Source: Aphrophora alni (Eukaryota; Arthropoda; Insecta; Hemiptera; Aphrophoridae). From it: a stretch of 64,000 nucleotides of DNA. Under the pieces are notes generated by a model. That model had not been told where the DNA came from, searched no databases, and saw only the letters and a list, made by a program, of their open reading frames with translations. Where the stretch lies: the NCBI GenBank assembly GCA_963513935.1, contig OY740772.1, forward strand, positions 104,679,989 to 104,743,988, given 5' to 3'. How positions within the stretch are numbered: position 1 is the stretch's first letter; each line of letters opens with the position of its first letter. The translations under genes were made by a program, and so were the position numbers. Positions 6,561 to 61,333 of this stretch are shown here, one piece after another.

Positions 6561-6658
6561 AAACGAGTACATTGTTCCGCCTTTCTCACCTTCGTTAATC
6601 TCACGTTTGTTGACGCGTTTCAGATATACTCCATTCTCAAAATATTTAATAGTATTAT
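6556..6658 (-). repeat. 100-bp repeat with hammerhead-like core, copy 1
   Basis: About 80 percent identical by eye to 7159-7258 in the same orientation. On the minus strand 6640-6612 reads TTGAGAA, T, a short stem, then GAAACGCGTC, the hammerhead-like arrangement. It also contains TTCCGCC at its other end. Confidence 0.65.
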
Positions 6659-7158
6659 TATTTTTTTAAATCTACTTTTGCTAGGTTCACTACTCTTTCG
6701 TAAAAAATATTCTTTTTGACATTAGCATCCCCCCCTTTTTTTAATAAAAACAATTTTTGTTTAACTTCCCATATTTTACTTTAATTTCTTTACTTATTCT
6801 ATTTTTAACATCTTCTATTATGCTGTTTACTACTTCGTTTAACATAAGAAGTAAAGCTTTTTTTTTTTTATTTCGTTCTTCTTTATATAATGTTGTTATT
6901 TCCATCTTTATCCAATATTTTTCCGCTTTTTCAATTACTGTACTTATTTTGATGATTAACTTTTTGTTTTATTTTTGATTCTAGGATATGTCGGAATCAC
7001 ATTATTTAGTACACATTGTTGAAGCATATATCACAATATATATTAGCTCTCGTCATATATAATTTCTTAAAACTATATTCTATTTTTTTAACTATTCTAC
7101 TCAGGCTGACCAAGTTAACATTTTAAACATTATTTTGATCTCCGCTAGGAATATTATA

Positions 7159-7258
7159 ATTAGAATGAGTACATTGTTCCGCCTTTTCCAGCTTCGTTAA
7201 TTTCACGTTTTTGACGCGTTTCGGATATACTTCATCCTCAAAACATTTAATAGTGTTT
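7159..7258 (-). repeat. 100-bp repeat with hammerhead-like core, copy 2
   Basis: Direct repeat of 6556-6658. The minus-strand core at 7241-7213 is TTGAGGA, T, GAAGTATATCC, GAAACGCGTC. Comparing both copies restores a three-pair helix II (GGA/TCC). The ACGCGT after GAA is self-complementary, as expected of a minimal helix III. Confidence 0.65.
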
Positions 7259-8241
7259 AATTACATAAATCCCTAAACTTGTTTCACTAATGACATAAAC
7301 ATTTCCTTAGCGTAATATGGTTTTTATTTGGCGATGAAAGTGTTTTGTTTTAGCCAATTATTTCTGAATCATAATTGTGATTTTGCGCACGGGCTTTGCG
7401 CATTAATCTTCACATTTCATTAAAATTGAAGCAGATTTTAAGATATTACGTACTGTACTTCATAGCCCGGGTAATTTTTAGAGATGGTAAAAAATGAATT
7501 TCAATTTTAGTATACTAGTCAATTTTTTGTTTCAATAGTAGTCTACATCATTGTTTTAAAATCAACAAGGTTCCTCTGCGCATAAAAATACAAAGAACAA
7601 CTTTTTGTTTAATACGAGAGAAATTACCCGTCCATACAAGTTACTTGTCAAAGAGGTGTTAGTAGTCGAGGCATACTGGATTTTAAAATAACATGAGGTA
7701 TGTAAACAGAATGTTAGTTGAAGCTCATCCCAAGCTTATTGAACCGAACCTAACCTAACAGTTGTCTATTGTCAACTCACTTGGCGACAAATTGCTCCAG
7801 ACGCAGACAAATCTTTAATGGACTGTCAAGTGCAATCGGTGATTGTTCTTCCTGCATAATGCATCACTGAAGAGTCGTTGCGCTAGTTAATTACAACTAG
7901 ATTATGTTTGTACGGCTCCAAGTGGCAGAGGTATGGTGAATGGGGAGTTAAGTAACGTTTTAAAGCATTTACCTTCCTTGTTGTTACAAGGAGAAAAACT
8001 TGTCAGACCTTATAAAAATTGAAAAATAAACATAATGTAAAGACTCCTAGATCTAGAATACTTTAAGAGCTTTAAGATCGGATATTAACAAAATTTGGTA
8101 AAGAGAGACCAGATATGAAAGATGACAAAGATCTAACCCAAGAGAATGTGGGAGAGAAAGCCAGCCGGCTAAAAAGTTGAGGAAAGTAATCCAGGCAATT
8201 TTGCGTTTAGTGGAACGGGGACCAGTGGAGAAAAGCCATTA
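7259..8241. other. No gene; part of a dispersed repeat
   Basis: Bases about 7335-7475 resemble about 19225-19400 (shared TTTCTGAATC, GATTTT, CATTAAT and GCAGATTTTA blocks), so this is dispersed repeat. CCTAACCTAAC occurs at 7749. No coding region recognised. Confidence 0.4.
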
Positions 8242-8430
8242 TTATACTCTGTTCATTTGACTAAGGCGGTTGGAGAAAGGCACTACTTGCCTCACGCACG
8301 CACACGCACGGGCAAGATACAGTGACAGCCCCCTCCCCCACTCACACACATAATCCCCTGCGCTTGTGTGTGTGAGTGGGGGAGGGGGCTGTCCCAAGTC
8401 CGAACGCCTTCGTCAAATGACCAGAGTATA
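8242..8430. repeat. 189-bp palindromic foldback element
   Basis: The inner arms 8324-8350 and 8367-8393 are perfect 27-bp inverted copies rich in CCCCCTCCCCCACTCACACA, with a 16-base loop. Outer arms near 8244-8272 and 8400-8429 also pair with a few mismatches (ACTCTG..CATTTGAC / GTCAAATG..CAGAGT). Transcribed, it would form a long hairpin. It is probably a snap-back MITE, and much more GC-rich than its surroundings. Confidence 0.85.
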
Positions 8431-9540
8431 GTCATAGAGGGGAGGCAAGGGATTCTCTGAATAGTCGCGTTTCCTGACATCGATAGTTTGAGGTTGACCG
8501 ATTGCATGAACATCAATTTCACCAGATCTCTCAATTTCTTATTCTAGAGAGTTATCAAGGATTAAGTTTATAAACCACCCTTATCGGATTCTCTCGCTGA
8601 GCTCAGAGCAAGAACATCGCAGTTACACTTGACGTGTTTGGCAGGATTCAACTTCAAATGGGAGGTCTGAACCATGGCAATCACATTGAACCCAAATACT
8701 ATAAGGTAAAAAACTTAGTGTATTGTGCTACAAAATGACAGTAAAACCAGTTCTGTAAGTAAAACGAATACATGCATATGTATTTACAAAGCGGTAAAGT
8801 TCTTTTTGAAGCACCCTGTATACGTTAATGAGTTAGTTCCAATTAACGACGTCTGTGAAAGTAGCTCATAACCTGTAAACTGACTTCGTTAAAATTTGTG
8901 TGAAATCTAAAGAGTAATAAACACAAACTCGCGTGGAAAACCCTAAGTACAAAAATTACAGTTTATGAATAATAATAAAACAAAACATACAAGAAACAGG
9001 AACACTCTCAAGCAATTTCAGGCTCTATTTAAATTATATTTTTTAAAGACGATATTCATAGTTCATTTCAATTTTTTAACAACAGATATTTTTGGTGACG
9101 AATACTTTTATTTGAAAAAACAAAACAAAAAAGAACCGCTTATTTAGCTGAAGGATGAGTGAGAATGTTTGTGCAATGTTTTTGCACTGTTTATTTTGTA
9201 ATGTGTTTTAAAACACAATGTAGAAAAGCCCAATTGCTCTAATTTCGCCTCTATAATAAAGTTTATATTTATTTTAAATCTGTTCTATTAGGCCTAATCT
9301 GAGCCTACTTACCATATTCCTTCAAGCAGATCTTTACATCAGATTTGAATTTAAACCATGTTAATTACTCACACAACCGATACTTTTCACATTTTTAATG
9401 CCAGTAACAACTCAAGTTTCTCAACAACACATTCCCAATGCTTTCTCTTCAGTAATGCCAGTGAAAAGAAAACAATTGTTATTTTAATTGAAACAAAAAT
9501 CAAAGAGAATGGCTCTAAGATTATTTGAAAGTTGTTTTAA
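8431..9540. other. No gene recognised
   Basis: Mixed AT-rich sequence. CACCCTGTATACG at 8812 resembles the end of the Tc1/mariner-type MITEs elsewhere in the window, but its partner was not found. Confidence 0.35.
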
Positions 9541-9544
9541 AAAC

Positions 9545-12620: not shown

Positions 12621-12717
12621 TTAGGCCTAGCCGATATTAGGAAAGTATTGATATACACAATTCCCAAGGTTCATAAAACCTGTGTAAGAACGGATTTAAA
12701 CAAATTTCGTTTAAAAG

Positions 12718-13460
12718 AGGATCTGCTTATATTACATTGTATGACTGGGCTGGATAAGTACCTCGATGGCGCCCATTAATTTAGTTTAAAGTGAAATACT
12801 TGTGTTTTATTTTTATATGTGTGTAAAATAGTTTTTAACATAAACCTAACCTAACATATCCTACAGAGCCCAAGAAATCAGATTTTGAGCATCAAACATA
12901 GTCGAATTGCTTGTATTACATTGTATAATGGGGCCGGGTAAGTACCTCGATGGCACCATTAATTTGTTTTAAAGTGAAATACATATGTTTTATTATTACA
13001 TAGTTTCAACATAAACCTAACATTTCCTACAAAACACAAGAAATCCAACTTTTCGACATCATATTTAGAGTATCTGCTTCTATTACATTGTAGAATAGAG
13101 CTGGGTAAGTATCTTAATGGCATTAATTCATTTGTTTTAAAGTGAAATACTTTTGTTTTATTATTACATCCGTGTAAAATAGTTTTAACCTAAACCTAAC
13201 CTAACCTTTCCGACAAAGCCTAAGAAACAAACTTTTGATTATCACATGTAAAGGATCAGTTAGTATAACATTATATGATGGAGCTGGGTAAGTACCTTGA
13301 TGTCTTCCATCAAGCGTACAAGTTAAATACTTTTATTTTATTATTACAATTGTGTTTTAGCCTAAACCTAACCTATCTTAACATTTGTAACCAACTTTTG
13401 AGAATTACACTTAGAATATCTGCTTGTACTTCATTGTATGAAGGAGCTGGGAAAGTTACC
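12718..13460. repeat. Satellite-like tandem array, 165-186 bp unit, 4 to 5 copies
   Basis: Units start near 12723, 12909, 13075, 13257 and 13422. Each begins CTGCTT(A/G/C)TATTACATTGTA, continues with GGGTAAGTACCTCGATGG, AAAGTGAAATAC and TTTTATTATTACAT, and most contain AAACCTAACC. Units have diverged by point changes and small indels. A further partial unit lies at 16502-16565. Confidence 0.9.
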
Positions 13461-14094
<634 letters not shown>

Positions 14095-14984: not shown

Positions 14985-15185
14985 TTATTATACATTTTTC
15001 GGACATTTGCCATCATTTGTGTGTTAGAAATCAAAACACGACGTTTCGGGAATAAGAATCAATTCCCGTTATCAATTGATTAAAAACTAAAGAAACATGA
15101 AACTAAGCCATGTAAGAAGTAAAATTAAATAAGAATACCACCAACCTTAATATCTAAGCATGCATCTCAGAGCTTAAACTGAGAA
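14985..15185 (-). repeat. Penelope-like terminal-repeat copy with hammerhead-like motif, inverted
   Basis: About 200 bp that, reverse-complemented, matches 32915-33130: TTAAGGTTGGTGGTATTC, TTTAATTTTACTTCTTACAT and CATTTGTATGTAA-type blocks occur in the same order. The hammerhead-like core on the minus strand (15078-15037) is TTGATAA, C, GGGAAT, an 8-base loop, ATTCCC, GAAACGTC. It lies between the arms of the 14485-15855 structure. Confidence 0.75.
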
Positions 15186-16400: not shown

Positions 16401-16501
16401 AATTAGAAGGTTCAGAAAAACAGTAACAAACATTTTAAATAAACTTAACCTAGCAGATAAGACTCCAATACAATTAAACATTTGGTCGTTATATAATTTC
16501 A

Positions 16502-17394: not shown

Positions 17395-17545
17395 TTGCAG
17401 GGAAATAGTTATTTGTGCAACTAGTGAGCAAAGTGGCACTTTTTTAAACGAGAGAAAAATGTTGACGCACGAGGCTTGCCGAGTGCGTCAATTTTATCGA
17501 GTTTAAAAAAGACACTTTGCTCACGAATTGCACATTATACTTTGT
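17395..17545 (+). repeat. Palindromic repeat family B, copy 1
   Basis: Outer part AGTTATTTGTGCAACTAGTG leads into nested inverted repeats: GAGCAAAGTG..CACTTT pairs with AAAGACACTTTGCTC, and TTGACGCACGAGG with GAGTGCGTCAA. The same layout, inverted, is at 27545-27690. The whole would fold into a long hairpin. Confidence 0.8.
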
Positions 17546-19060: not shown

Positions 19061-19807
19061 TATGTCAGTTCCGTATTTACCAATTAAACATTTTAATGAA
19101 CCAAGAACGGCCTTTGAAAACAAAGTCTATTTTAAAATAAGGACATAAACTTCAACAGTAGAATAAACACACCCTCAGCGAGAGTTCTATTTAACGTTTT
19201 AATGATGACGGTCAAAGTTCATTTTTTGTTTTCGTCAATTGTTTCTGAATCGTAATATTGATTTCCTTGTAATTTTGGTTCATTAATGTTCATATTTCCC
19301 TAAACTTTGAACGAAATCAGTACCTGCAGCAGATTTTATAAATTAAGCATTTTATCACAGCCCACGAATCGGTATTTTTTTAAAAACGACAACCAATACA
19401 TTTTGTTTGTGTCATTAGAATATCCGCTTGAGCGAAATTTGATGGAAATCTTTACAACGGATTTTGAGTAAATTGTAATTTTGTGTTATATTTTTTCAAG
19501 GCAGCTATCTCCAAATTTTTACTTAAAGTCCCAATATGTTGACAAACCAAATATTAATAAAACGGCACACGCTTTCATTCTGCACATACGACAGAGATCA
19601 AACCACGTCTTTAGTCATATTTGATTAAAATACAGCTTTTAGTGACAGCGGACAAGGTTCATGTTGTTTTTAGCAAACATTTTTTTTCTCTTCAACAATG
19701 CTTATTGTCCAACTTACGAGTGCATTCTCCTTGAAACATTAAAAACAAGATTTCATGCAATTTAAAATTAATTATAAATAAATATTGAGCAGTAATTTTC
19801 GTTACTT

Positions 19808-19943
19808 AAGCGCGTTTCAACTACAAATTCGCCCATCTTCAATGATGCACGAGCTACAATAACGTCTTGAATAAGTTTTAGTTTAGTTATTGTAGCTAGT
19901 ACATCACTGAAGATGACGACTTGTCATTGAAACGCGTTTGAAT
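19808..19943. repeat. Palindromic element with two hammerhead-like cores
   Basis: Arms 19808-19863 and 19886-19943 are inverted copies (about 56 bp, roughly 80 percent paired). The plus-strand core at 19904-19941 is CTGAAGA, T, GACGAC/GTCATT helix II, GAAACGCGTT. TCA before and TGA after it pair as helix I. The minus-strand core in the left arm reads TTGAAGA, T, ..., GAAACGCGC and is more decayed. Confidence 0.75.
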
Positions 19944-22900
19944 AAATAAACTTACTATTTGTTTGAATTTGTGTTAAAAACTTACTCTATCATGTTAAAA
20001 ATGAAAAAAAAAAGTATATTATTGCAATTTTCTCAAGTAAATTTATTTTATAACATAATTTTCTAGGAAATATATATAAGTACATTAAATATTTTTATAA
20101 CATTTTTAGCATATTAATTTTTCAAGAGAAAAACACCCCATAAGGGAAAAAATAAATATTTCCCCCTAAAAATGTAGCCAAACTACACGCATGATTTTTT
20201 TTTTTTTTTTTTTTTTTAAAGAAAATATTTACAATCACGTTCCCCCCTTAAAATTAAATATTTTTTTCGAAAAACCATAAAGGTACTGTAATTACATCTT
20301 GTATTTTAATTTCACAAGTTACTGAAGTTTGATTTTCCTTCCCCACTTTTTGAAATTTTTCAAACGTTTACATTAGAGAATGCGAAGTTTAAAAAAATAA
20401 TAAAAAAATAAAATAAAAAAATTAATAAATAAAATAAAATGACAAATTTTTGCCAAATTATCTAAAAGTTTTTCAACCGTGTCTAAAGTGTTCATTTACG
20501 ATCTAAGAACAGGTTCTAAAACAGCTGATTACTATATTCAGCGTGCAAAACATTATTGGAAGCAAATTAACATTGATTAAATGTGATTCATTATTACACG
20601 CAGAATAAACCAGCTGATAAATAAACGTCCTAACCTAACCTAAAACCAGCTGATTCAGGTTTATTATTGTCACGTGGCCGCTCACTGAACAATAAACAGA
20701 CCCACCTGACCTCAAATATATTTATAGGCCTAGTTGTTCAATACCATAACAACCTGATTTTCAAATTGATGAGAACGATTTTGAGTTGACAAACATTCCA
20801 ACCTATAATTTGTATAACTCTTATTAAACTAAAATAATAAAAATAGAATGTATACTGCAGTTGTGGGAAAATGTTCTGTGTAATTTAAGTGTAAAATGTC
20901 CATCACTCTCAAAAAATGACTGCGCTCCGCTACGCGTCACGCGGTAACTTTTTCTCTCTTGCGATAACCTATTTACACCCTTAATAAATAAATACCTACT
21001 TCCGGGTCCTTTTCACTCTCTGGTTTATAACAACAATTAACATTCTTTTCTCTCGGTTTTACAAGCCAGTATTGTAAAAGATTGCCCCGTTATATTTTGA
21101 TTTTATATCCTAACCTAATTCAACTGGACGTATGTTTAAAGAATCTAAATTACAAAGTTCAGCTACTGATATTCATGCTCAAACTTGGTTCTCGTTTATA
21201 CTAATATTTAACATTAGCATTTAATGACTTTGAGTTGATTTCTTATCAGTAGTTTTACAGTACAGAAAGCATCTACAGGATGTCCCGTAACTCTCTGGAA
21301 CCGTTTGAAGAATTGTTTGTTAAGATAAAAGATCCAATAAACATAAGGTCCAAATAGTTTCGTTTCACATTTATCCGCCTTTTTTTTAACACAAAATCTT
21401 TATATCTTAGGAAGTAGATAAGACACTGAGTTCAAATTTGGTTTACTTTTTTTACCAGGGTACTAAAAACCAGAACGTTCTCTTGTATATTTTCAAAATG
21501 GCGGCCGTTCAAGTTTTTAACGTTAAATATCTCTAAAATCGTTAAGTTTACAAGGAACAAAAAAGTTTACTTTTTTAATAACAAATGAATTGTTTCATGT
21601 ATTTTTTCTGTACGTTTAAAGGATAACCGAATTTTCAGCAAAAAAACAAACACAAATTTAATAATTTCATGGTAGTTATCTATCTACAACATCAACAATT
21701 GATCTAGACCTAAAATATATCTGAATTATAAAATAATAACAATAAATTTTATTTTTCACAAGTGTTTTGAAAATGAAAATCTTGATTTTAACGTTTTCAA
21801 AATATCGACTGTTTAAAAACTTTAAAGTAAAAATACTCAACGGTTGGTTTCACACAAAAAAAGAAAGATAAAAAATGATAATTTCATAGACGAATTAGGT
21901 TTAAAGAAATTAGGCGAGGAATAAATAAAATATTAATATTTTAAGTTAATAAGATTTGTTGAAAGGCGATTCTTTTTTAAATTTAAATAAATCAAAGAGT
22001 TAGAATATAAATATTTACTACACTTAATAGTTAAAAGAGGGCAACCAATTCATTCTATTTACAACTGCTCAAAATCACGACCTTCAACATGGTAGGACAA
22101 CTTAAATCTATCAAGTATCGACCGCCGGTCCAACCGTTTTTGAGTAAAACATTCCCAACAATTTCAACATAATTGGTGAAGCCGATTTTGAGAAATTACG
22201 TCTTTTTTACAGATAATTCAAGAACTGGAAGTGTTGGTGATATGGTGAATATTAGGTTTTTTTACTGATTCCTTAGATGCAAAATTTGATCAAAAATCGT
22301 TAGAGCTAATCCCACACATCCTTCTGTTGACGCAAATATTAAATAAAAATATACGACGCTAAAAATATCAGTTCGGTATTGAAATAAGTCAAAATTGTTT
22401 CTTTTCGATAACTTAAAATTTGGGGGTTGCTGACAAAGAAAAAAAAATACGAGTTTAATGAAATCATACTCAAGTAGTTTTGATAAAGAAGACTACTAAA
22501 TTGGCTTACAGTTCAAGTAGGTGCATTTCTTTTTTAAGTTGAAGCAAAAAGTCTATTGAGATTTGCAAATCATGTGCAACAGAATAATTGACATATCAAT
22601 GAAGTACTCTACACTTCATCTCCTCCTGACAGGAATCTTTTAGCGATCATTCATTCAAATTACACTAACCTAAACAAAATATCTCATCCATCATTCTTAC
22701 AAGTGACAAGATATCCATTATTCTTCATAACCCAGTCTTGATGAAAGCTTATATTTCATAGAATGTAAACAAAATCAAGGGTGGTTGAGAGTATTTGTTG
22801 TTTAATTGTCTATGAAGTCATGAGTAATGTATTTTGATCCAGAAACAACATTTTTTAAAGTGAGAAGTGGCACTTGACAATCTTCCAAATAAATGGTGCA

Positions 22901-27544: not shown

Positions 27545-27690
27545 AATGTGTTACACGGGCGCAAAGTGTCTTTGCTGCACTCGAGAAACTTTCCGCACTC
27601 GCCTGCGGCTCGTGCGTAAAGATTTCTCTCAAGTGCAGCAAAGTGTCACTTTGCGCACTAGTTACACAAATAACTATTGTTTATTTGAAT
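27545..27690 (-). repeat. Palindromic repeat family B, copy 2
   Basis: Reverse complement reads AGTTATTTGTGTAACTAGTG, then nested inverted repeats (GCGCAAAGTGACACTTTGCT pairing with AGCAAAGACACTTTGCGC; TTACGCACGAGC with GCGAGTGCGG). Same architecture as 17395-17545 with compensating differences in the stems. Confidence 0.8.
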
Positions 27691-32914: not shown

Positions 32915-33130
32915 TTCTCAGTTTTAACTTTGAGATGCATACTTAGATATTAAGGTTGGTGGTATTCTTATTTAATTTTACTTCTTACATAGGCTTAGTT
33001 TCTAGTTTTATGTTTCTTTAGTTTTTAGTCACTTGATAATGGGAATTGATTCTTATTCCCGAAACGTCGTGTTTTGATTTTTTACATACAAATGATGGCA
33101 AATGTCCGAAAAATGTATAATCATAAAATT
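32915..33130 (+). repeat. Penelope-like terminal repeat (pLTR-like)
   Basis: About 215 bp downstream of the GIY-YIG relic, repeated inverted at 14985-15185. It carries the clearest hammerhead-like motif of the window and ends CAAATGATGGCAAATGTCCG, a block also found inverted or direct at about 15000, 50530 and 50710. Confidence 0.75.
33030..33071 (+). ncRNA. Hammerhead-ribozyme-like motif (U3-A8 variant)
   Basis: Reads CAC (helix I), TTGATAA (core, consensus CUGANGA), T, GGGAAT, loop of 8, ATTCCC (perfect 6-bp helix II), GAA, ACGT (self-complementary helix III), C (cleavage-site position), GTG (helix I partner). The extra pyrimidine between the core and helix II and the U3/A8 in place of C3/G8 depart from the textbook motif. 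Activity is therefore uncertain. Confidence 0.55.
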
Positions 33131-43800: not shown

Positions 43801-45145
43801 TTAATGCTCACAGCAATCACATTTCCCCAGTATTTTTATTTATTACTAAACCTAGGTAAATATGTGTTTGAAAATCAATATTTCTAATTTTTGTTTTTCT
43901 AACAAATTTTGCGACCCCAGATGGATACCTATTCCGTCTACTGGGAAATATATCCCTGGTTGATTAGGTGTTTGAAGGTCAAACTGTTAAACTCCTCTAC
44001 TATAAGAAGGTTTTGTCAATATTTGATGAACAAGTATGAAGAAAAAGACCAGAAATATGGTAGAACAACTCAAGAATTCACCAAAACAAAGTGTCAACAC
44101 GCAATGAGTTGTACGTCAAAATGTTTTTCGTGTAGCACGGAAATCCATCAGTTTGATCTAACCCATGTGACCTTTTATTTATGAACTGGAATAAAATTTC
44201 TATAGCTGTATTTTGTTTATTTTATTTATATACTGATCACGTTACTGGAAAAAGTTATCGGGTAATATTCCTGCCAGTAAAATATGGAAGAAAAATTTGA
44301 ATTTCAAGAATGGGAAGAAATTATAATGATTATTATTAAGGGAAAAGCGATGGGGGGGGCTGATGAAATTATCAGAAGATGATCTCCAACATGGTTTTCG
44401 ATAGTGGAAAATTTGCTTGGAACAGTAAAGGGATTTTTAAAGGAGTACACAGAAGGGTATAACATTTCCCATATATAATTTGTTGATTTCTTTTTTTAAA
44501 TCAGTCTAGTTATTTTGTAGAAACATATATTTAACCTTTAACAGGTTAATGACAAGTTTATTGCAAAATAATTTTGATTTTCACAGATAGTTAGCAGATT
44601 TAACTATAAATTATTAAAAGTCTTGTGCTTGTATAAAATATTTAAAAACTTTATTTTGTTTCAATTATTTTTAACTGTCAAAAAGGGTTATGCATTTCAT
44701 TATTTAATCGTAATGCTCAGTCTAGAACATGTATATGTCAATTGTTCATTTTAGTTTTATCATATTGTAAACATGTTAAATTTATTGCCTATAAAAAAAG
44801 TTTAAGGATAGTAAATAATATAGAACTGAATTATTTATACCTAAACTCATCATTTTAATAATATTTTTTCAGTTTACTACTACAGTAGTTAGCAATGTAT
44901 AGGTACTGTTTTAGTTAAGAGGGTTGTAGATATTTTTTTGTTCTTTGGTGCAGCATGATCAATTGGTACCAAAACTTTTTTTTTTTAGTGGGAATTACTT
45001 ATTTTAATAATTGCAAATGTAATTAAAATAAAACTTTAATACGATTTCTCGAAAATACGGTTATTATATCAAATGCATTTCAATGAGAACGTCACCATAT
45101 TTAGTAATGCATAAGGACAATAATCAAACTACACCTAACTAGTAT
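40891..45145. other. No gene recognised
   Basis: 4.2 kb of AT-rich sequence. Short open frames (for example 43909-44184) have no recognisable motif. I searched the minus strand for the missing PP2C exon (a DN(I/V) motif) and found no convincing match. Confidence 0.35.
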
Positions 45146-45158
45146 TGTAGCTTATCCA

Positions 45159-45197
45159 TTGCTGAAGATGGTAATATTGTCACTGAAATGTGTTTGA
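45159..45197 (+). ncRNA. Hammerhead-like motif
   Basis: TTG, CTGAAGA, T, GGTAAT, loop, GTCACT (five or so pairs), GAA, ATGTGT, T, TGA. The core C3 and G8 are both canonical here. It sits in the sequence TAGCTTATCC..AATAAACG resembling the right arm of 19808-19943. Confidence 0.45.
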
Positions 45198-46879
45198 TTT
45201 AATAAACGTATTTGTGAAAAATTGTGTTCAACTTTTTTTTAAATTCAATACATCTCAAAAGTCAACTTCAATATTTATTTATAATCAATCAATTTATTTG
45301 ATGACTGTGTTATGATGTAATAATTGAGGTTGATTATGAAAGTGAGGAAGAATTAGTGGCAAACAATGCAAGTGATTTGATTGACATTCATGATTCTCAG
45401 TGTAGGTAAATTAATGAATGAAACAGTGTGGTGTTGTTATTATCAATGATTTTACAAATTCTAAATAAATTGCCCATCTCCACAGAATGCTTTGAAGCAC
45501 ATAAAATTGAGGTTTTAGTGCTATCATCTAACGGCCTACACCTGTAAATTAGAAGATAGCTTGCCATATTATAGAGCTCCAAGAGGGATGTTAAATAATT
45601 TCACTCATTCTCTTCCTCTCCAGTTAGGGCTCAAAATGACTCTCAATGCACTAGTTTTAAGTGTCATTATACTACCATAGTGGCGCACGACTATACAAAA
45701 CCTTTCAGACCCAATTTCTATTTTGATTAGTATTTATAATACTTTATACATTATAAAAACACAGGTTGACACCAATTCTTTTACTCGAAATTTCCTAGAC
45801 AGTGTTCCACGAATATATTAAACTTTTTAAATGGTTATGCTGGACCATACATAATTCAATAAAGATCAAATGTTGTAGTTATGTTCCTAAAAAACTAAAA
45901 AGTATATAAATAAATTTGAGAGTTTTATCTTGTAGCAAAACAAAATGATGGGTTTTGAAATAAGCACATTTTTTGAGAAATTAGATCCCTATGCATGGCC
46001 TATATTTTTGTTTTCCGATACCTCATGAACCAGCATTTTTGGAAAGATGCTTGCCAATACCTTTTTGTTTGGGTTCTTAGAAGCAAAAAGGGACCTTGAG
46101 CAAAATTTGATCAAAATCTTATTATTTTTCCCTTAATGGCAGTTACCCCCAAATTTCCAGTTAACAAAAATATGAAAGTTACAAGAAATGGCAAAAATGT
46201 GTCTATAAAAGGCCTTCCACAAGGAGCACCTAAAAAGTCTAACGAGTATTAGCTGTCAGTACGGTAACTAGAAGATTAACTAGTGATAGAATTTCCACTA
46301 TTTTTTTAAAGAATCTTTGCATGAAATGTGTGAAATTCATTGAGTCATAAAAAGATATTCATAAGGCAGTTGCTTCAATTTTGTTAAAAAGCAAAAACCC
46401 TCTTGGTTACCAAAACCTTATAAAAGAAGGAAGAAAAGATCATAAGAGTTGGTCAAAAGAGACATGAAAGTAAATATAAAAGAGAGGGATATAACCCAAG
46501 ACTACATGAAAATTTGTATAAATCCTGCTATGTTCCCTTGGGTTACACATTAATCTTGTACACATTAAAGTCAGCCCCTGACATCCTTCAAAAAACCCTC
46601 ACAATGACCCACATTATCTCAAACTGGTTATAACTAGAGATAAATCATGAGTATAATTATATGACCCAATCTTTACACTAGGAAAGTCTTTTAGTTCAAA
46701 AAATGTGTGTTAAAGTAGGAGGAAAGCCATGTTGATAATTTGTTTGTATTAAGGTTTTCTTCATGAGTATACTGCTGCAGGATAAAGTAATTAATAAATA
46801 AGGAGTACTGACTGAGGAATGCAGTAAAAAGGAAACAGGTAGATTAATTACAACAATGTACTCGCCAGTTCATTAAATT
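45198..46879. other. No gene recognised
   Basis: Mixed sequence, no recognised feature. Confidence 0.35.
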
Positions 46880-47666: not shown

Positions 47667-50042
47667 CTGAAAAAATAAACAGTCAAGTAGATTATTTAAA
47701 TTTCAGTAGTGTCAGACTTAAAAGACACAAAAAACTGCCAAATCAAACTAGTGATATCCTTACGCTCTCTAAAATTCAGGAAAAAAGCCTTTTCAAAACA
47801 ATCTGAGAAAGTTATTAATTTCTGGAACATTTTATTTGGTGGAGGAGTTTCTTAGCTACAACTGGGCAAATTGTCGTTATTAATTCCAGGAATAGTATGC
47901 AACTATTGTTAGTTTTTTTGGTTAGGGTAATAGTTGTATTGTTAGGTATTTTGTTTCACTCAGTGCAGTTTAATTTTTAAATATTTATAAACATGAATTG
48001 ATCTTTCATGATTTTTATATTTTTTTAGATGTTTTATTTACATTTCATCAATTAAAATTTACATAATCATATTTTAATTTATTTATTTCTATTGTAATGG
48101 TTTATCTCTGTTGACTGATCATTGTACATTTGATTATTATTGCATTCTTAATTAATTCTGTTGTATTGTATATAAATTTAATTAAGATTATCTCCATACA
48201 AATTACATTTTTCACTGCTATAATAAATAAATAAAACAAAAAGCGTATTCACACAGTTGTGTCATAAAAAATGTATCAAAACTACTTCGACTGTAAGACA
48301 AAAAATATGTAAAGCAACAATATATTTAAATGAAGTGTTGTATGATGAGTGAGTTTGATATCTATCAGCTCGGAACAAAAGCGAGGCCAATCAAATCATG
48401 ATGCCTGTATTTAGTCTTAATTATTTTGACTATACATTTAGGCCTGGGTTCCTTCCTTAGGTTTTGTTAATATTTCTTCATGTTCTTGTTTTATCATTTG
48501 AACCCTTGATTGCTGGGATCCTTCCCATCATATTTCTAGTACGGAGAAGAATTGTGTGGTATTCAGGGCAGTTAGAAGCAGCAAGAGAACTGACGACTAC
48601 CAAGATAAATGGTAAGAGGATTGGAAAAATTTTGGTAGCATCAATAAGTTCAAAAATGTGAAATTTATGGTATACCGCATTTCACAATCCGAGATTATTT
48701 TCCAACTTTTTTATAAATATTAATTTTAATTTTTAATATTAATTGTTTGAACTTCATTTGTTAAGTTGGCTGGATTTAAGTTGAGATTTTTAGCTTAAGT
48801 TTAAGTTAGTGGCTGTGTTCAGAATGCCCTGGCAAGTAATAGATCTCCCCCTCCCCCCTTTACCTTTACAATAACAGTGATTAGAAATAGACATTATTAT
48901 TGGCCAGAGAAGGAAAATAATAATAAAAACTGATAATCTCAGAGAGATGTTATAGAACATATTTATATGTATATTATATTTTTTATAAACATTTGCATGT
49001 TATTCTGCTGCAAGAGTTTGGAATACTTAACAACGATTTAATGTGTGCCATAGGTAAATGATTCAATGTAAAATCTCATAATTTAGTTTGAACGAATAAA
49101 CGGACAGTATACTTGAATAAAAATTTTATTAGAGAAAATTGATCTTAGAAAATAAAATTTACAACAAAATATGTTTTTTTTTTAATATGAATTTTTTAAT
49201 AGATTTAGTTCGATCTGTCCAAGTAAGTTTTTTTATAATGTATGTTATAAAGACAAGGATTTGCACATTAATCAAAACTATGGAATTATAATGGTAAATT
49301 AAACAAAACGTAAAAATGTTAAATTCATTTTAAATTATTTTTCTACATTTAAACTTAATTAATTAAAAGAGAACAAAAATAAAATAACCTGATAACATGT
49401 TCTAGTTTTAGCAAATCCATTGTTGAAACTCCACATGAAAAAGCTGTATTTTTTTTATGATAAACATTTTGAAAATTTATAATCACATGTTAAACAAAAC
49501 AGAAACTAAAATATACTTTTATCAACCTCAAAGCTCAAAATAAATCTGTTATTCTGTAGCAGATTTTGTAATGGCCTTCAGCTTTTTTAATTTTCATAAC
49601 TTCTAAACACAATTTATGAGAATGCTGATTACAGTAAGTCCTTGATTTAAAAACTTTGAACTGATGATAGAAACAAATCTCCAAAAACACTTAAATTCAA
49701 GAATATTATACAGCAATTCTGAGATCTAAGTAGGGATTGACAGGGTAAACATGTTTATTTACGTCAGACAGGGAATACTGTATTTCATCACTAGCGATAA
49801 ACACGACAACGGCTGTCGAAGAAGAAGGTAAAATTAAATTGTATTTGTTCATTTGTCACAAGTCCACATTTCTGTCAAACTACTCCAACAATACACTAGC
49901 TTATAGTATTTTCCTAAGAAATTCAGGGCTGAAGGAGTGAGGATTCCTTTCTTAACTTACTAGATTTAGTTTTATTTCCAACATAGTCTAACATTAGATT
50001 ATGTTTACACTTTTCATGTTTGTTATATTCAAGCTTTTTCGT
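47667..50042. other. Intron of the PP2C gene (2.65 kb to the next exon), no other gene
   Basis: AT-rich intronic sequence. The open frame at 48464-48661 on the plus strand has no recognisable motif. Confidence 0.5.
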
Positions 50043-50078
50043 TTGATAATGAGAGATAATCTGCACTCTCGAAATATT
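50043..50078 (+). ncRNA. Hammerhead-like motif
   Basis: TTGATAA, T, GAGAG, loop, CTCTC (perfect 5-bp helix II), GAA, ATATT. Related to the cores at 33030 and 50644, with T for C at the CpG-prone positions. Confidence 0.4.
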
Positions 50079-50314
50079 ATGTATTAATTTTTATACACAC
50101 AAATGTCTGAACAAACTATATCAGTTCTATACAGTAGTACATGTTATAAATTCTGACCTCCAAGAGAACAAAAAGTTATATGGCCATCATCTAAGCAAGT
50201 GTTACACTTTTCCATGCACTGTCAATCAGAATTTCATAAATATTTTCAGAGTTTTGTTTGTACCATCAAAAGTTTGATAGTTGAGAATTGTATTTTAAAT
50301 TAAATTAATCTTAC

Positions 50315-50408: not shown

Positions 50409-50522
50409 CTAATGGACAAACAAAAACGCATGTTTTTTATTAAAAATAAAACAAATATTTCATTCTAGTTTTAAAATTATTTGAAAATGATTGATAGATT
50501 GTTCATACTATTAATATGATTT

Positions 50523-50722
50523 AATTGGACATTTGCCATCATTTGTGTAAAAATTAATACACAACATTTCGAGAGATAAATCAACTCCCCTTAACAAATG
50601 ATAAACCTAGAACAGATACACTTTTTTAATGATCTGGGTTTATCATTTGACAACGGGAGTTGATTTATACTCTCGAAATGTTGTGTATAAGTTTTTATAT
50701 ACACAAATTGCAAATGTCCAAT
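50523..50722. repeat. 200-bp palindrome with hammerhead-like cores
   Basis: Arms 50523-50606 and 50636-50722 are inverted copies (about 84 bp, few mismatches). Each begins and ends with AATTGGACATTTGC..ATTTGTGTA. Plus-strand core 50644-50685: CAT, TTGACAA, C, GGGAGT, loop, ACTCTC, GAA, ATGT, T, GTG. The minus-strand core in the left arm is TTGTTAA, G, GGGAG..CTCTC, GAAATGTT, with A6 lost. Confidence 0.8.
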
Positions 50723-52194
50723 TAAACCATATTAACTATTTCATTTTTAAACACCTATTTTATCATGATATTGGTTTTCAAATAGATACCTAAACAAAAA
50801 CAGTGGAAGTACCTAGTTGTACTATAGTATCTCTGACACTATATGAAAAAATCTTCTTCTCTATTATCAATTTTTATTTTTTTTATTTGACCACTTGCAT
50901 AAATATAAGAATTAAGAATATATAAAAATTGTCTAGAATTGACTTAATTAAATGAACAATTTGAAAAGAGGATTTTATTTGTTGCAGGACTTACAAGTCA
51001 TTAAGTTATGTTAGATTAAATTATTAAAAAACATATTGTAGAAAACGTTTAATCTAAATAATTTAATACATCGGTGGCCAATAGGTGAAAATGTTTAATA
51101 ATTTTGCTCAAAAGAGTCTTTATCAAGGTTCCACTGTCGCATATAATTCGCCCAGTCTACTGTATATATACTGTTAATTTGAATTTCTTCATAAAACCTG
51201 ATTGTTATAAGCTCTTTTGTCCAACAATGTAGAAATGATCTAACAAAACTTAGATCAAAATAAAAAAGTCTCTAGACATTGTTCTAACTCAGGTTCTTTC
51301 TTTTAACAAAGAGTTGCTTACTCTGACAGAATTTTATTTTCTATTCGTAACTTTTTATACATATTATAGAGTTATGTCAAATGTTTCTAGTTTGAATAAA
51401 CTTTACTGTTTCTTCTTCCCTATTTATTGTCTTCAATAAACGGATGCAATTCATGACTGTCGTATCAGAATGAAAAGTGGCTCGGAAATGAATATGTGGT
51501 TAATTTCGAAGAATGAATATATAACAATACGGATGAAATTCCATTATTTCAAATTCTTCAAAAATTTTAAGAAATACACTACTTGTATTAATGTTAATTA
51601 TGAATTCGTTTTCCGAACAGAACCATGTTTCTTGTTTATCGTTATTTTAAGTTTGAAATTGGGAAAGCATTAAAATGTTAAAGCTTAAGATCTGTGGTGA
51701 TGTTAGAATCTCTGCTTTTATGTGTTTTCATAAACCTGCAGGATTTATTATATGTAGGTTTATGATGGGAAATGTAAATTTTTGAAGGAGTCACCTCTTC
51801 TACAAGATCGATGACTGGGTTGATTTTCTTTGCTGAAGTCATCATTGAGGCATCACACAACTTTGATATATTGAAACTACGTACATTACCTCAAACTGAT
51901 GCAAGATGGGCCAATAATCCCTTCCTTAAAACATTTACCCAATACGCACACATATATTTGTTTAATGTACTGCATTACAATGGTTAAGACATTGCTTTTT
52001 ATAAATCTCCAATGTCTTCCAATTCAAACAGCCAAGCTTTAATTTGACTACTGAAAAGTGATAAATATAAATCTATTTCTATTTATAGATATTATCTTAA
52101 ATGTCTTTGGTTTGATATATAAAAATGTATTAAACAATTATTCACATCTATGTATACATGTTACACACATGAAAAATAATTAAAACATGTATTA
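50723..52194. other. Intronic sequence, no other gene
   Basis: Part of the intron between PP2C exons c and b. No recognisable feature. Confidence 0.4.
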
Positions 52195-52431: not shown

Positions 52432-53024
52432 GCAAACGAGCTTATTGCACATCTGAAAATAATTTCAATGTACTCAAGAGTGCTTACATTGGCATGTATT
52501 TACGTACTTGAAAAGTTACTCTATTTTAAATTTAAATGTGATAATGTCTAGAATATGGATATATACACAATTATAGGCCAAAGAACACTTGCAACTATTG
52601 TGCCAGACAGCTTCCTTTACTATCCGGTTTAAAATTGAAGAATAAGTACCCGTGTTATCAATTTAAAAATTAATATTTTTTAAAATTTTGAAAATTACAT
52701 AGCTTTTAAAACAGCCATAGACAATTTCAATTGTCTGAATCATTCTTCTTGGTGGATGAGTGTGTACACCATGGTCTTGTTGTTTCTGGGCAAATGTAAT
52801 CTCTGACTTCACAGGTTCACTCAATTTAATTTATATTTCTAGAGTTTTGTCATTTTGTTTGTATATTTTTTTATGTGTATGCCTGTGGATTGTTTATGTA
52901 TGTGGTGCATCTGGCTATTTATAAAATAAAAAAAATTAAAATTGTAACATGACAATCATAGGCCACCATGATTGTATTTTGAATGATATGTATTATCTAT
53001 TCTTACCTTCTTTTATGTGTGTAC

Positions 53025-53115
53025 AATCCTATTTTCAACTTAGATTACCAGTTTCGACAAACTGATGATGACAATTTGATTGTCAAAACAGGTAACTTAA
53101 GTTGAAAATAGGATT
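53025..53115. repeat. 91-bp palindrome with hammerhead-like core
   Basis: Arms 53025-53059 and 53081-53115 pair with a few mismatches (AATCCTATTTTCAACTTA..). The plus strand at 53062-53094 reads CTGATGA, T, GACAA, TTTGA, TTGTC (perfect 5-bp helix II), AAA, ACAGGT, A. The core CUGAUGA is the textbook one, but G12 of GAAA is A here. The other arm still has TGTCGAAACTGGTA. Confidence 0.8.
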
Positions 53116-53339
53116 ATAGACAGACCTAAAAAAAAGGTAATCATAAATTGTAAAATATTTATACACATTTTTCATTTTTAAAGTTTGTTGTCACTTATTA
53201 TGTTGGTCTCGATGTAATTTGGCAAACAAATAGAGGCGACCTTTTATCACATAAGTTAACAGTCACTAACCCATTGGGATATTCAGTTGGCTGCTAGATA
53301 CTATTAAGTGTGTATTGTGTGACTACCCTATTCACAATG

Positions 53340-58197: not shown

Positions 58198-58221
58198 TAT
58201 ATATATATATATATATATATA
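58198..58221. repeat. (TA)12 microsatellite
   Basis: Alternating TA. Confidence 0.9.
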
Positions 58222-58469
58222 TTTAAATGAATGATATTTTTTTAATTAATCTTTACTATGTTTCCCTCAATTTTTAATAATTTAAAGTTATTGGAAAATC
58301 TAAATAATTCCAGTAATTTTAAATCCTAAATTAAATATTAATTAATAGTTTTAAAATTGAGTCTATGGGTACTTCCAAGTGTGGTAGATTAGAGGATTAG
58401 GGAGAATTCTTCTGAAAGAGAGAAATTCTCCCAGATTCAGGGCAAATCTACGAAGATTGAAAGGACAAA

Positions 58470-59305: not shown

Positions 59306-59570
59306 AATGTTATCTACCAGCTATAGTGCTGGTTTTCCCATCTCTACATATTGGCCTAAACACAGACAACCTAAGCATCAAGATGAATGACCACAGACAT
59401 GATGTAAAAATCATGCATATAAAGAAACCAACTGTACAACATGCAACAATCCATAACGTTGATTTTTATGACTGCTTCATAACAAAAATTATAAAATCAC
59501 TCCCTTCAGAATGTAACCCCTCAGAACTAAGAAGATGAACACTCATCAATGGGTCATAAAATCTAGATAA
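59306..59570 (+). pseudogene. GIY-YIG endonuclease fragment, Penelope-like
   Basis: NVIYQL*CWF starts in one frame (Y-Q-L as the GIY element). After a one-base shift the frame continues HIGLNTDNLSIKMNDHRHDV (the Y.G.T...L..R...HR block), KKPTVQHATIHNVDFYDCFI, TKIIKSLP and LRR*TLINGS. Such GIY-YIG domains end Penelope-like retroelement proteins. The type differs from the relic at 32411, so at least two Penelope-like lineages are present. Confidence 0.7.
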
Positions 59571-60203
59571 CCTTAAACTTAGATAAATCATTCTTTATCC
59601 TTTTACCTCTCCCAACAGGCTTACTTAAAAAACATTCATCTGTGGTTCAACACTCAACACAGATCCATCCTCTGCAACCATATTACAACAATTATTTATC
59701 TTCTTTTTACAATCGCTACTGATTGAAAAAGTGTAGAACTATAGTGTTTTATCGTGTGTTTTACTATTTTACTGTTCCTGTATTTGTGCATTACTAGGTA
59801 TACCAAGGACCACTTTCTAAGATAAACCTACGTCTTTTATCCAATCTAAATATGAAATAAATTATCTTGATAATTTTGACAGAATTTAACAAAACATTTT
59901 AAGTGTGCCATTTTTTTAAAAACACTCTCTAGTATGCGATATTAGTCATACTCACTGTCATTATCTTCATTAGATCAATCTAATGTAAACTATAAAAATG
60001 ACAAACTAACTTAGTATACGACTATACTCCTTTATTTTTATTTTATTATTATTATTATTATTTTTTCAAAATGAAACTATACACAGTGAAGGTTTACAAC
60101 TGTGAAACTACAAAAAATATAATTCTGTACATTACTAGAGAGTCCAAATATTCCCACAAGATAGCAACATAATGCAGACCTTAGATATTTTATCGCTGGG
60201 TTG
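59571..60203. other. Intronic, no gene
   Basis: AT-rich. A TTA-repeat lies at about 60047-60062. Confidence 0.4.
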
Positions 60204-60218
60204 ATTTAGTACCACTTA
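60204..60218. repeat. 15-bp target-site duplication, 3' side
   Basis: ATTTAGTACCACTTA, identical to 61110-61124. Confidence 0.95.
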
Positions 60219-61109
60219 CTTCTTACTTCTTACTTCTTAGTTCAAGCGTCCAAGGCTGTACACCTCGATGGCTCGATGTCTCCGGTATACGTTTGCAGCT
60301 AAGGCCCAATGCTGAGTTTCTGTGAGGATCTTTCTGAGCATGGGCTCTTCACCGACATTTTCTTTTACGGTTTGTCTTTCTTCTATATGGTAGGTGCAGT
60401 GGATGAGTATGTGCTCCAAAGTCTCATCCTCTCTCTGGCATGTTCCACATGATGCACTGTCAGTTAAACCAAATCTGTGGAGGTAATTGTTCGTAATAAT
60501 ATGCCCCGTCCGAGCCCTAGCCGCAAATGTTGCGATTGCTCTCGGAACCGACTTGTAGATTTTGGGGTCATTTGGTTGTCTCTGAATTTCGAAGTAGACA
60601 CGGCCGGACGTGCAATTCTGCCATCTCTGTCGCCATTCCGCATTGAGAGACCGATTAGCAGTCTGCTTACAGTGCTGCAGAGAGTAACGTCGTTCTTCAC
60701 TTGGGCGCATGCTGCATGCCTGGTCAGCTAGAGCGTCTGCCGCCTCGTTACCCGGAACTCCACAGTGACTAGGTACCCACTGCAGCGTGATGCTTTTGTT
60801 TTTGAGCTGGGTTAGGATGTCGTAGATTTCCGATGTTCTGAAGCTGTAGTGGTTGGACCTGGGGTTTCGAAGGGTCTGCAAAGCTGATCTGGAATCTGTG
60901 AGAATGCATATTTTGTTTTCCTCGATCGTCGTGCAGAACTGTAGGGCGGCGTTTAAAGCTAAAAGTTCGGCATTCATGCTAGAAGACGCATCGCAAGGAA
61001 ACAGGTAAGACTCTCCCAATTGTGGACAGCAGAATGCTCCTCCACCTCGATCATTTATTTTATCGACAGAACCGTCTGTGTAAATTTTCAAATGATCACT
61101 GTATTTCTC
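60219..61109 (-). mobile_element. 5'-truncated non-LTR retrotransposon with RNase H
   Basis: Insertion in the PP2C intron on the gene's own strand, flanked by a perfect 15-bp duplication. It keeps only the 3' end of ORF2 and a tail of three GAAGTAA-type repeats (TTACTTC on the plus strand) in place of poly(A). An RNase H domain and a short-repeat tail point to an I/Nimb/Loa-like clade and not Jockey. The intact frame and perfect duplication mean a very recent event. Confidence 0.92.
60237..61109 (-). CDS. RNase H domain and C-terminus of retrotransposon ORF2 (truncated)
   Basis: About 290 codons, open from the truncation point to a TAA. RNase H residues are all present: Asp in KIYTDGS, Glu in SSMNAELLAL, Asp in ILTDSRSAL, His and Asp in WVPSHCGVPGNEAADALAD. 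The C-terminal region has a CGTCQREDETLEHILIHC zinc-knuckle-like motif, typical of the end of many non-LTR ORF2 proteins. The apparent start at 61121 is a GTG inside the target duplication, so this is not a true start. The endonuclease and reverse transcriptase are lost. It would degrade RNA in RNA-DNA hybrids if translated, but there is no own start codon. Confidence 0.9.
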   Translation of the reverse strand, partial: EKYSDHLKIYTDGSVDKINDRGGGAFCCPQLGESYLFPCDASSSMNAELLALNAALQFCTTIEENKICILTDSRSALQTLRNPRSNHYSFRTSEIYDILTQLKNKSITLQWVPSHCGVPGNEAADALADQACSMRPSEERRYSLQHCKQTANRSLNAEWRQRWQNCTSGRVYFEIQRQPNDPKIYKSVPRAIATFAARARTGHIITNNYLHRFGLTDSASCGTCQREDETLEHILIHCTYHIEERQTVKENVGEEPMLRKILTETQHWALAANVYRRHRAIEVYSLGRLN

Positions 61110-61124
61110 ATTTAGTACCACTTA
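61110..61124. repeat. 15-bp target-site duplication, 5' side
   Basis: ATTTAGTACCACTTA, identical to 60204-60218. Confidence 0.95.
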
Positions 61125-61172
61125 AGTAAAGCGTTAGATTTTAATTTTACAGAAAAAAAACATTAAGAATAT

Positions 61173-61333
61173 TGGAAATAATGAGATGATTATTTAATTC
61201 CACAAAACAGCTTTAATTGCGACATATGTTTCGCCGTTAGGCATTTTCAAGCAACAAGAAAATGCCTAACGGCGAAACATATGTCACAATTAAAGCTGTT
61301 TTGTGGAATTAAATAATCATCTCATTATTTCCA
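61173..61333. repeat. Near-perfect 161-bp palindrome
   Basis: Arms 61173-61248 and 61258-61333 (76 bp each) pair with one mismatch around a 9-base loop AAGCAACAA. They contain ATGCCTAACGGCGAAACATA and its inverse. The left arm with the loop, read on the minus strand, gives a full hammerhead-like motif; the right arm lacks the core end. Confidence 0.97.
61216..61255 (-). ncRNA. Hammerhead-like motif in the palindrome (U3-A8 variant)
   Basis: On the minus strand: GTTGC (helix I), TTGAAAA, T, GCC, TAAC, GGC (helix II), GAA, ACATATGT (self-complementary helix III), C, GCAAT (helix I partner, four Watson-Crick pairs plus a G-U). All three helices can form. It departs from the consensus by U3/A8 and one extra base before helix II. 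Confidence 0.5.

Follow-up and report, generated by a model that had tools for sequence, protein, structure and literature searches.

The twelve short motifs found along the window, by which we mean the whole 64,000-nucleotide stretch of Aphrophora alni DNA analyzed here, are in our assessment (a probability of roughly 0.93, judged from sequence) minimal type I hammerhead ribozymes of Penelope-like elements (PLEs), drawn from several PLE families and from their short non-coding derivatives. They share one plan: after a YUGANRA core come a single unpaired additional base, stem II, then GAA, a stem III that is self-complementary (ACGU, ACGCGU or ACAUAUGU) and H17. The hammerhead core at a three-way junction (CUGANGA ... 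GAAA ... H) is present in the best copies and genome-wide, with one extra unpaired base. The original prediction had proposed this layout, and core, insert, stem II, GAA, stem III and H17 are indeed all there; all 12 motifs could be read at their predicted positions, 11 of them were re-located from hand-aligned strings, and the motif at 19809(-) is present as well. The window copies are scattered and often decayed, many of them probably dead, and the motif occurs in many thousands of copies in the genome.

Known PLE hammerheads (Cervera and De la Pena 2014, as related in passages of PMC7761336 and PMC6466107) likewise have a minimal or palindromic stem III, a PLE context and tandem units. The families described here that combine U3-A8 with an extra U may or may not belong to those known collections, the comparison being one of descriptions rather than of alignments. 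Rfam hammerhead models gave no match in the window or in the 12 of 30 genomic loci scanned, even at E ≤ 10, and RF00163 gave none in any genome examined, 14 controls included; we read this silence as a limit of models built on a longer stem III. A covariance model had been suggested as a check, and one built from 18 loci outside the window (the external model) succeeded in part: seven of the twelve sites were the top seven of its nine window matches (E ≤ 10), and five (15037, 50043, 50560, 50644 and 61216) were not found.

Motif Families in the Window

Family A contains the best-preserved copy, at 33030..33071(+), with stem I CAC/GTG, core TTGATAA (U3-A8), an inserted T, stem II GGGAAT/ATTCCC, the palindromic stem III ACGT and C as H17; all 11 of its 11 pairs form, and the external model scores it at E 0.18. 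The copy at 15037..15078(-), again U3-A8 with C as the insert, forms 10 of 11 pairs, the inner pair of stem I being lost. The copy at 50040..50081(+) (site 50043) has U3-A8, an inserted T, stem I CGT/ATG, stem II GAGAG/CTCTC and stem III ATAT and also forms 10 of 11 pairs; relative to 33030 four pairs have changed on both sides, and all four still pair. Two further copies lie in a head-to-head palindrome at 50511..50735, whose arms are 81% identical: the right arm holds 50644..50685(+) (U3-A8 with an inserted C, all 11 of 11 pairs forming, wobbles included) and the left arm the decayed 50560..50600(-) (TTGTTAA, insert G).

Family B occupies two head-to-head palindromes. In the first, at 19791..19956, the right-arm copy at 19904..19941(+) has C3-G8, an inserted T, ACGCGT and stem I TCA/TGA and is matched by the external model at E 2.7e-10, and the left-arm copy at 19809..19850(-), also found by that model, has U3-G8 and a decayed stem II. 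The GAC/GTC hairpin previously assigned to the 19904 site is out of register, since the family genome-wide has a 6-bp helix II of the type GGCGAC/GTCGTT. In the second palindrome, at 45021..45245, the right-arm copy at 45159..45197(+) (C3-G8, insert T, stem III ATGTGT) is found by the external model and faces a mirror copy at 45069..45107(-), absent from the original prediction, with a broken core, CTAAATA, and C3-U8.

The two family C copies, both found by the external model, lie at 6609..6643(-) (site 6612; TTGAGAA, U3-A8) and 7210..7244(-) (site 7213; TTGAGGA, U3-G8, one stem II mismatch), each with an inserted T and ACGCGT; the family C string TTGAGAATGGAGTATATCCGAAACGCGT recurs among the genome-wide U3-A8 cores. 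Family D is represented at 61218..61253(-) (site 61216) by TTGAAAA (U3-A8) with an inserted T, stem I TTGC/GCAA, stem II GCC/GGC and stem III ACATATGT, and all 10 of its 10 pairs form. It lies in a palindrome at 61169..61337, the arms of which are 93-98% identical and the center of which falls at the 5' edge of the hammerhead; the mirror motif at 61253-61288(+) lacks the core and has A and A at positions 3 and 8. Family E, at 53059..53097(+) (site 53062), has CTGATGA, an inserted T, GACAA/TTGTC, AAA in place of GAA, stem III ACAGGT and a mostly unpaired stem I (external model E 0.0057), within a palindrome at 52995..53148. Its source was probably a family whose stem III read ACCGGT, from which it has decayed; L035:3928-3971(-) is a possible relative.

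Stem I, which the original prediction did not include, forms in several of the copies (CAC/GTG at 33030, TCA/TGA at 19904, TTGC/GCAA at 61216) and is incomplete at 15037, 6612, 7213 and 53062.

Motif Number Exceeds Chance

With a template this short, chance hairpins in an A+T-rich genome have to be considered. A strict search of the window (stem I of at least 3 bp, stem II of at least 4 bp, palindromic stem III) returned three matches against 0.05 expected from 40 shuffles, and two looser forms returned six against 0.175 and seven against 0.9, counts that are not independent because several of the matches belong to repeat family A. When 264 kb were scanned for the structure without bias, any base being permitted at positions 3 and 8 and the insert ranging over 0-2 bases, six strict matches emerged against 0.375 expected (eight shuffles). 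The insert was a single base in all six, and the 3-8 pair was C-G in two and U-A in four, three of the six matches being one family. Genome-wide, with ACGCGT fixed in the patterns and the self-complementarity of stem III thereby built in, we counted 12,323 C3-G8 cores, 1,675 exact U3-A8 cores and 514 C3·A8 cores, where reversed-pattern controls gave 0, 1 and 0, respectively; these counts cover three of the four Y/R combinations. Exact C-G or U-A cores thus number about 14,000, with more when changes are allowed. The controls and shuffles refute chance as the origin of the motif, and its probability is negligible.

Covariation in the Stems

Helix II sequences had been noted to vary while pairing persists, and this is borne out on the scale of the genome: 50 of 61 distinct C-G stem-loops (from the 100 matches listed) pair over at least 3 bp in stem II, against 5.5 for shuffled letters; among distinct U-A stem-loops the figure is 21 of 30, against 2.0. 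For 18 loci chosen from the 30 the covariation score was 0.696, where shuffled alignments scored 0.316 and slid structures no more than 0.182, and paired cells made up 95.5% of helix II and 68.1% of helix I; the 12 loci left out of this set include three in which stem II is nearly absent (L016, L019 and L022). Both helices draw support from covariation in these 18 loci, although one of the five measures, the number of pairs changed on both sides, stood at shuffle level (8 against a mean of 7.3; 232 of 500). Within family B in the window, pairing is kept in 16 of 30 one-sided and five of 10 two-sided pairwise changes, one row's string being short of one G. A stem I of three or more contiguous pairs is seen in 16 of the 30 loci. 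The covariation is strong for stem II and weaker for stem I, and the maintenance of stem II pairing across families argues that selection acted in vivo.

The U3-A8 Pair and a Tandem PLE

The claim that 3-8 pairing is kept in all copies is true of the 12 sites listed, provided that U-G is counted as a pair, but it fails in the mirror copies at 45069-45107(-) (C and U) and 61253-61288(+) (A and A); the template used, Y at 3 and R at 8, by itself lets three of the four combinations pair. The pair was C-G or U-A in all six strict matches of the unbiased scan. Whether U3-A8 with an inserted pyrimidine is a distinct variant or transition decay had been left undecided. On the decay account, U3-A8 and U3-G8 are nothing more than C3-G8 altered by transitions in dead copies, and the motif is a functionless fossil; decay is plain in several window copies (50560, 19809, 45069 and 53062), and 15 of the 17 C-A strings shown (514 counted) resemble, by eye, changed C-G families, one resembling the U-A family GGAGTATATCC and one being left unassigned. 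Against this, U3-A8 is found in all five family A copies, its 1,675 exact cores are three times as many as the C-A cores and at the listed places fall into recurring families, and the U-A strings largely retain stem II. Identical units of a tandem PLE whose reading frame is open carry U3-A8 as well, so it is not only decay; we regard the decay account as improbable and favor a distinct, stable form, carried by families A and D, one of the two window C copies and the tandem element.

This element forms an array at C1:16795740-16809972 in which the U3-A8 motif returns at intervals of 2,818 bp. A comparison of two units showed identity at 2818 of 2818 bases, and each has an open frame for reverse transcriptase (RT) and GIY-YIG; the unit L051 gives RVT_1 at 7.7e-09 and GIY-YIG at 2.9e-05. 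Among the 120 of 361 matches listed, the homologues at E ≤ 1e-60 for which an organism is named come from insects, and many carry Pfam PF26215 and PF00078. The motif thus stands beside an RT and GIY-YIG frame in tandem units, in keeping with the Penelope link that had been proposed. At the core, an AUG is followed by two codons and a stop, and the first Met of the long ORF lies 147 nt further on (L051:339).

The Poseidon PLE hammerhead of Anolis carolinensis, in which 3-8 pairing was tested by C3G/G8C rescue according to the relevant passages of PMC11167929, differs from the tandem element in these start and stop positions and from the U3-A8 carriers in its 3-8 pair. Covariation from C3-G8 to U3-A8 in natural hammerheads is already stated in PMC3088659 (Perreault et al. 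2011), so the pair is no departure from what is known; the part of that paper concerned gives several examples among rare core variants, whereas here a single genome holds 1,675 exact cores. A figure legend in the same paper presents a putative repeat-type hammerhead with a palindromic stem III from Aedes aegypti. What the present case adds is a hammerhead that combines U3-A8 with the extra base and sits in identical, tandemly arranged units of a PLE whose frame is open. In a viroid hammerhead the extra base is reportedly an A, located before helix II. An extra nucleotide in the core of a viroid hammerhead is named in the title of De la Pena and Flores 2001 (reference 28 in PMC6155905), so the inserted base is not new either, although it is mostly U here. 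We lean toward the view that in whole PLE lineages the 3-8 pair changed from C-G to U-A, with an additional base ahead of helix II, and that these lineages remained mobile and gave rise to well over a thousand solo and inverted copies, making the genome a natural deep mutational scan of the minimal hammerhead core. This single genome offers a very large collection of naturally occurring variants of such a minimal, dimer-type hammerhead.

No Pfam domain was found in two stretches examined near families A and C, and within 1.5 kb downstream of the 30 loci no frame exceeds 123 residues; for these reasons we treat the copies as solo and do not link them one by one to parent PLEs. The putative link of each window copy to PLEs is drawn from the motif, the layout and the head-to-head copies. 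The short frames would also suit non-LTR retrozymes, which are short non-autonomous repeats with a hammerhead that move as circular RNAs and for which PMC7761336, in the passage concerned, proposes PLEs as the likely machinery, and one same-strand array with a 119-bp step does exist (C1:9571163-9571789). Retrozymes, however, are described in PMC7229834 as canonical type I hammerheads in tandem repeats with RNAs of about 170-400 nt, a combination that we did not find; the core here is of the minimal palindromic type and is carried by a PLE with an open frame. Among the 100 matches listed, neighbors less than 500 bp apart were head-to-head in nine cases, tail-to-tail in none and same-strand in four, all four in a single array. 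A retrozyme origin is accordingly unlikely, and we retain the PLE assignment.

Head-to-Head Palindromes

Palindromes surround seven of the 12 window sites with the motif pointing outward, a feature absent from the original prediction. Such head-to-head inverted copies resemble those reported for PLEs. Inverted arms as alike as those at 61169-61337 might also suggest foldback or MITE-like DNA transposons that contain the motif by accident, but all nine opposite-strand neighbors are head-to-head, the center junctions differ among four copies of one family (L006, L014, L028 and L029), eight other loci of that family have no inverted copy, and no convincing target-site duplication, shared or otherwise, was found in 12 palindromes. 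We consider a foldback origin very improbable. In the Penelope families of the rotifer Adineta vaga, the passages of PMC3846280 concerned describe head-to-head inverted pLTRs with an optional tail, explain the palindromes at the inverted junction by self-priming, and report target-site duplications of 8-10 bp in some copies, of which the 12 palindromes here gave no convincing example.

For the PLE hammerheads we propose that two tandem units in one transcript, or a pair of RNAs, would join by their palindromic stem III to form a double hammerhead, which would cleave after H17 to yield unit-length RNA, possibly assisted by the protein that the element encodes, as in Anolis. Copying of RNA at the target would then fall to the PLE reverse transcriptase. 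Insertion in vitro was found not to need the ribozyme (PMC11167929). Because the center junctions differ between the four copies compared, the head-to-head palindromes would arise at insertion, and the differing centers bear on how PLEs produce inverted insertions. In two-strand folds the full double hammerhead formed in one of seven, that of family D.

Hammerhead Layout and the 3-8 Pair

All 12 hammerhead-like sites of the original prediction are present in the window sequence, and a script found the hand-aligned strings again for 11 of them, the exception being the string for 19809, which is itself one base short. The hammerhead layout runs 5' to 3' from a stem I strand through YUGANRA, one extra base (an unpaired insert between A9 of the core and stem II), stem II, GAA, a self-complementary block and H to the other stem I strand; the blocks seen, which form stem III, are ACGT, ATAT, ACGCGT and ACATATGT. 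The sites comprise family A (15037, 33030, 50043, 50560 and 50644), family B (19809, 19904 and 45159), family C (6612 and 7213), family D (61216) and family E (53062). A descriptor combining stems I and II with the core, a palindromic stem III and H17, the predicted cleavage-site base, matches the window three times in its strict form, where 40 dinucleotide shuffles predict 0.05; looser forms give six matches versus 0.175 and seven versus 0.9 (40 shuffles likewise). A possible relative of family E was observed at L035:3928-3971 (-), with GAAACCGGT, the core CTGATGT and a 6-bp stem I, AAAAAT/ATTTTT (E 0.055); it suggests a family with ACCGGT as stem III.

Because the template behind the prediction, with Y at position 3 and R at position 8, itself favors pairing, the window plus 200 kb was rescanned with N at both positions, an insert of 0–2 bases and eight shuffles. 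Six strict matches were obtained versus 0.375 expected, and every one carries C-G (two) or U-A (four) at positions 3 and 8. Each also has exactly one extra base (T in four, C in one, A in one), these matches not all being independent because family A contributes three of them. Allowing a stem I of 2 bp adds one further match, C-A and without the insert, at an expectation of 1.4.

Genome-wide counts were made on the 1.70-Gb assembly of 388 contigs that contains the window. The C3-G8 pattern, CTGANGATGN{8,22}GAAACGCGT, has 12,323 matches (reversed-pattern control, 0), the U3-A8 pattern (TTGANAATG...) 1,675 (control, 1) and the C3-A8 pattern (CTGANAATG...) 514 (control, 0). Given these three cells, positions 3 and 8 would vary independently only if there were some 40,000 U-G copies (TTGANGATG..., of the form TTGANGATGN{8,22}GAAACGCGT), which we consider unlikely. 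Because the patterns fix both the stem III sequence and a T directly following A9, they test neither the extra base nor stem III. Family C of the window (TTGAGAATGGAGTATATCC) is seen again among the genomic U-A matches.

Covariation and Covariance Model

Within family A, 33030 and 50043 differ by four two-sided pair changes, with pairing kept in all four, and by two one-sided changes, with pairing kept in one; between 33030 and 50644 four pairs have changed and 11 of 11 still form. Simulated P values are 0.002 to 0.04 in four comparisons and 0.62 for 33030 versus 15037, the simulation being a rough guide with divergences set by eye at 0.30–0.35 (0.09 for 15037). Family B is weaker in the window, keeping pairing in 16/30 one-sided and 5/10 two-sided pairwise changes, where one row of the counts comes from the 19809 string with its missing base.

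In the genome, stem II begins after the T, with a mean length of 4.62 bp versus 0.03 when the T is paired (100 C-G matches listed, all counted). Stem-loops of at least 3 bp are formed by 50 of 61 distinct C-G sequences among the 100 matches listed, versus 5.5 with shuffled letters, and by 21 of 30 distinct U-A stem-loops, taken by eye from the U-A matches listed, versus 2.0 after shuffling. Thirty loci were fetched from the genome, and 18 were chosen by hand for alignment; the remaining 12 comprise near-duplicates and others, including L016, L019 and L022, in which contiguous stem II pairs number 0–1. The covariation score of the 18-locus alignment is 0.696 versus 0.316 after shuffling (0/500 as high), and slid structures reach at most 0.182; the eight pairs changed on both sides in this alignment are not above the shuffles (mean 7.3). 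At least three contiguous stem I pairs form in 16 of the 30 loci, with up to six in L004, L007 and L018.

A covariance model built on the same 18 loci, all C3-G8 and all outside the window, was then run on the window, where the prediction was recovered in part: the top seven of nine matches at E ≤ 10 are predicted sites (19904, 7213, 6612, 53062, 19809, 45159 and 33030; E 2.7e-10 to 0.18), and five of the 12 (15037, 50043, 50560, 50644 and 61216) are missed at this threshold, there being other stem III letters or decay at these sites. Rfam scans left the hammerhead models unmatched in the window and 12 of the 30 loci, and RF00163 over the genome gave no match for either the target or the controls and is therefore uninformative.

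A Tandem Penelope-like Element Carries U3-A8

U-A matches to the genome pattern lie at C1:16795740 and 16798558 (-) and at C1:16801486, 16804304, 16807122 and 16809941 (+), with a step of 2,818–2,819 bases on each strand; they form two tandem arrays arranged head-to-head. The 6-kb locus L051, with a tandem Penelope-like element (PLE), contains three hammerheads, and two neighboring units in it are identical at 2,818/2,818 bases. Each unit has an open frame of 828 residues (811 from the first Met) with RVT_1 (7.7e-09) and GIY-YIG (2.9e-05) domains. A protein search gives 361 homologues at E ≤ 1e-60. Of these, 120 were listed; many carry Pfam PF26215, and all that name an organism are from insects (Schistocerca, Phthorimaea, Euphydryas and Parnassius), relatives that point to an insect as the probable host. 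The form with U3-A8 and an insert had been proposed to be either a distinct variant or the product of decay in dead copies. Its occurrence, with an extra U, in identical units of a recently amplified PLE means that decay is not its sole origin. A spacing of close to 2.8 kb is also seen in another U-A family (GGGATTGCGGTCCC; C1:111882648 and 111885416).

We considered whether the extra U might simply belong to the start codon of the ORF, as it does in Anolis, and rejected this for the tandem element, in which the AUG meets a stop two codons later. Pfam searches returned no domain in the read-through frames examined close to families A and C, no PLE ORF was found within 1.5 kb downstream of the 30 loci (longest frame, 123 residues), and a family A string has no match in viral contigs, a set from which records near the window may be excluded.

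Head-to-head Copies and Palindromes

Seven of the 12 sites lie inside five inverted repeats (19791-19956, 45021-45245, 50511-50735, 52995-53148 and 61169-61337), with the motif facing outward from the center. Among 100 genome matches listed, neighbors closer than 500 bp are (-,+) in nine cases, same-strand in four and tail-to-tail in none, the four same-strand cases all belonging to one array with a 119-bp step. A GGCGAC-family hammerhead array with this step was observed at C1:9571163-9571789 (-), one step being absent from the exact matches, and is the closest approach to a retrozyme-like array in this genome analysis. The motif region recurs in inverted orientation in 11 of the 30 loci (two places counted twice). 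By eye, an imperfect palindrome (TGAGTTATAG...TTGTAGCTCA) lies close to the start of solo copies of the GGCGAC family, and the center junctions of this family's inverted copies differ among L006, L014, L028 and L029. The loops at 19.8 kb and at 45.1 kb resemble each other, which had hinted that palindromes replicate as a unit; this was rejected because center junctions differ. No convincing target-site duplication was found for the 12 palindromes searched, with a nominal P no lower than 0.04, for an A/T-rich match partly within the arms of 19791-19956.

The head-to-head copies are consistent with the self-priming proposed for Penelope elements of Adineta vaga, for which head-to-head is described as the commonest inverted arrangement, with palindromes at the inverted junction (PMC3846280). 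They are also consistent with the extension on both target strands seen for the Anolis PLE (PMC11167929).

Relation to Known Hammerheads and Cleavage

Structure, covariation, carrier element and inverted copies are established here by computation, and the hammerheads belong to a known class, for which this genome provides good documentation. PLE hammerheads have reportedly been in print since Cervera and De la Pena 2014. They are described as minimal type I motifs, without helix III or tertiary contacts, and as occurring both in pseudo-LTRs and dispersed (PMC7761336, PMC6155905). Natural hammerheads with U3-A8 are already published, as is, according to a figure legend, a putative palindromic repeat-type hammerhead of Aedes aegypti (PMC3088659). 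A literature search with two primary papers outside its reach turned up no PLE lineage described as having U3-A8 and the insert as fixed features, and we do not claim that this combination is unpublished.

Tandem transcripts in this genome would cleave as a double hammerhead. Dimer cleavage is credited to Lunse et al. 2017 in PMC10085705, PMC7761336 and PMC6466107. The Anolis PLE ribozyme is protein-assisted, and its C3G/G8C double mutant partly restores cleavage (PMC11167929). In two-strand folds, the full double hammerhead is the minimum-energy structure in one of seven, family D, other structures being lower in energy for the remaining six (L051, L004, A33, B19R, the L014 copy and C6).

Other Features of the Window

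The palindromes 17414-17534 and 27547-27668 are mutually related (77%), and the motif scans have no match there. A LINE at 1433-5960 (-) has two long open frames, one of 897 and one of 526 residues; the top database match to the longer frame is 100% identical and carries Pfam PF00078, PF14529 and PF03372. Immediately beyond the LINE ORF on its 3' side, 1079-1272 forms a 202-column inverted match (75% identical) with 6359-6557, which adjoins the family C copies. A 351-bp direct repeat of ~1.8 copies lies at 12716-13456, with relatives at 16501 and 54485, and 13897-14094 is occupied by a (GA)n array 99 units long (98% matches). Transposon protein remnants are found at 28767-29534 (+), 37731-38123 (+) and 60237-61121 (-), which by eye we take to resemble a Tc/mariner transposase, a hAT-like piece and a LINE RNase H domain, respectively.
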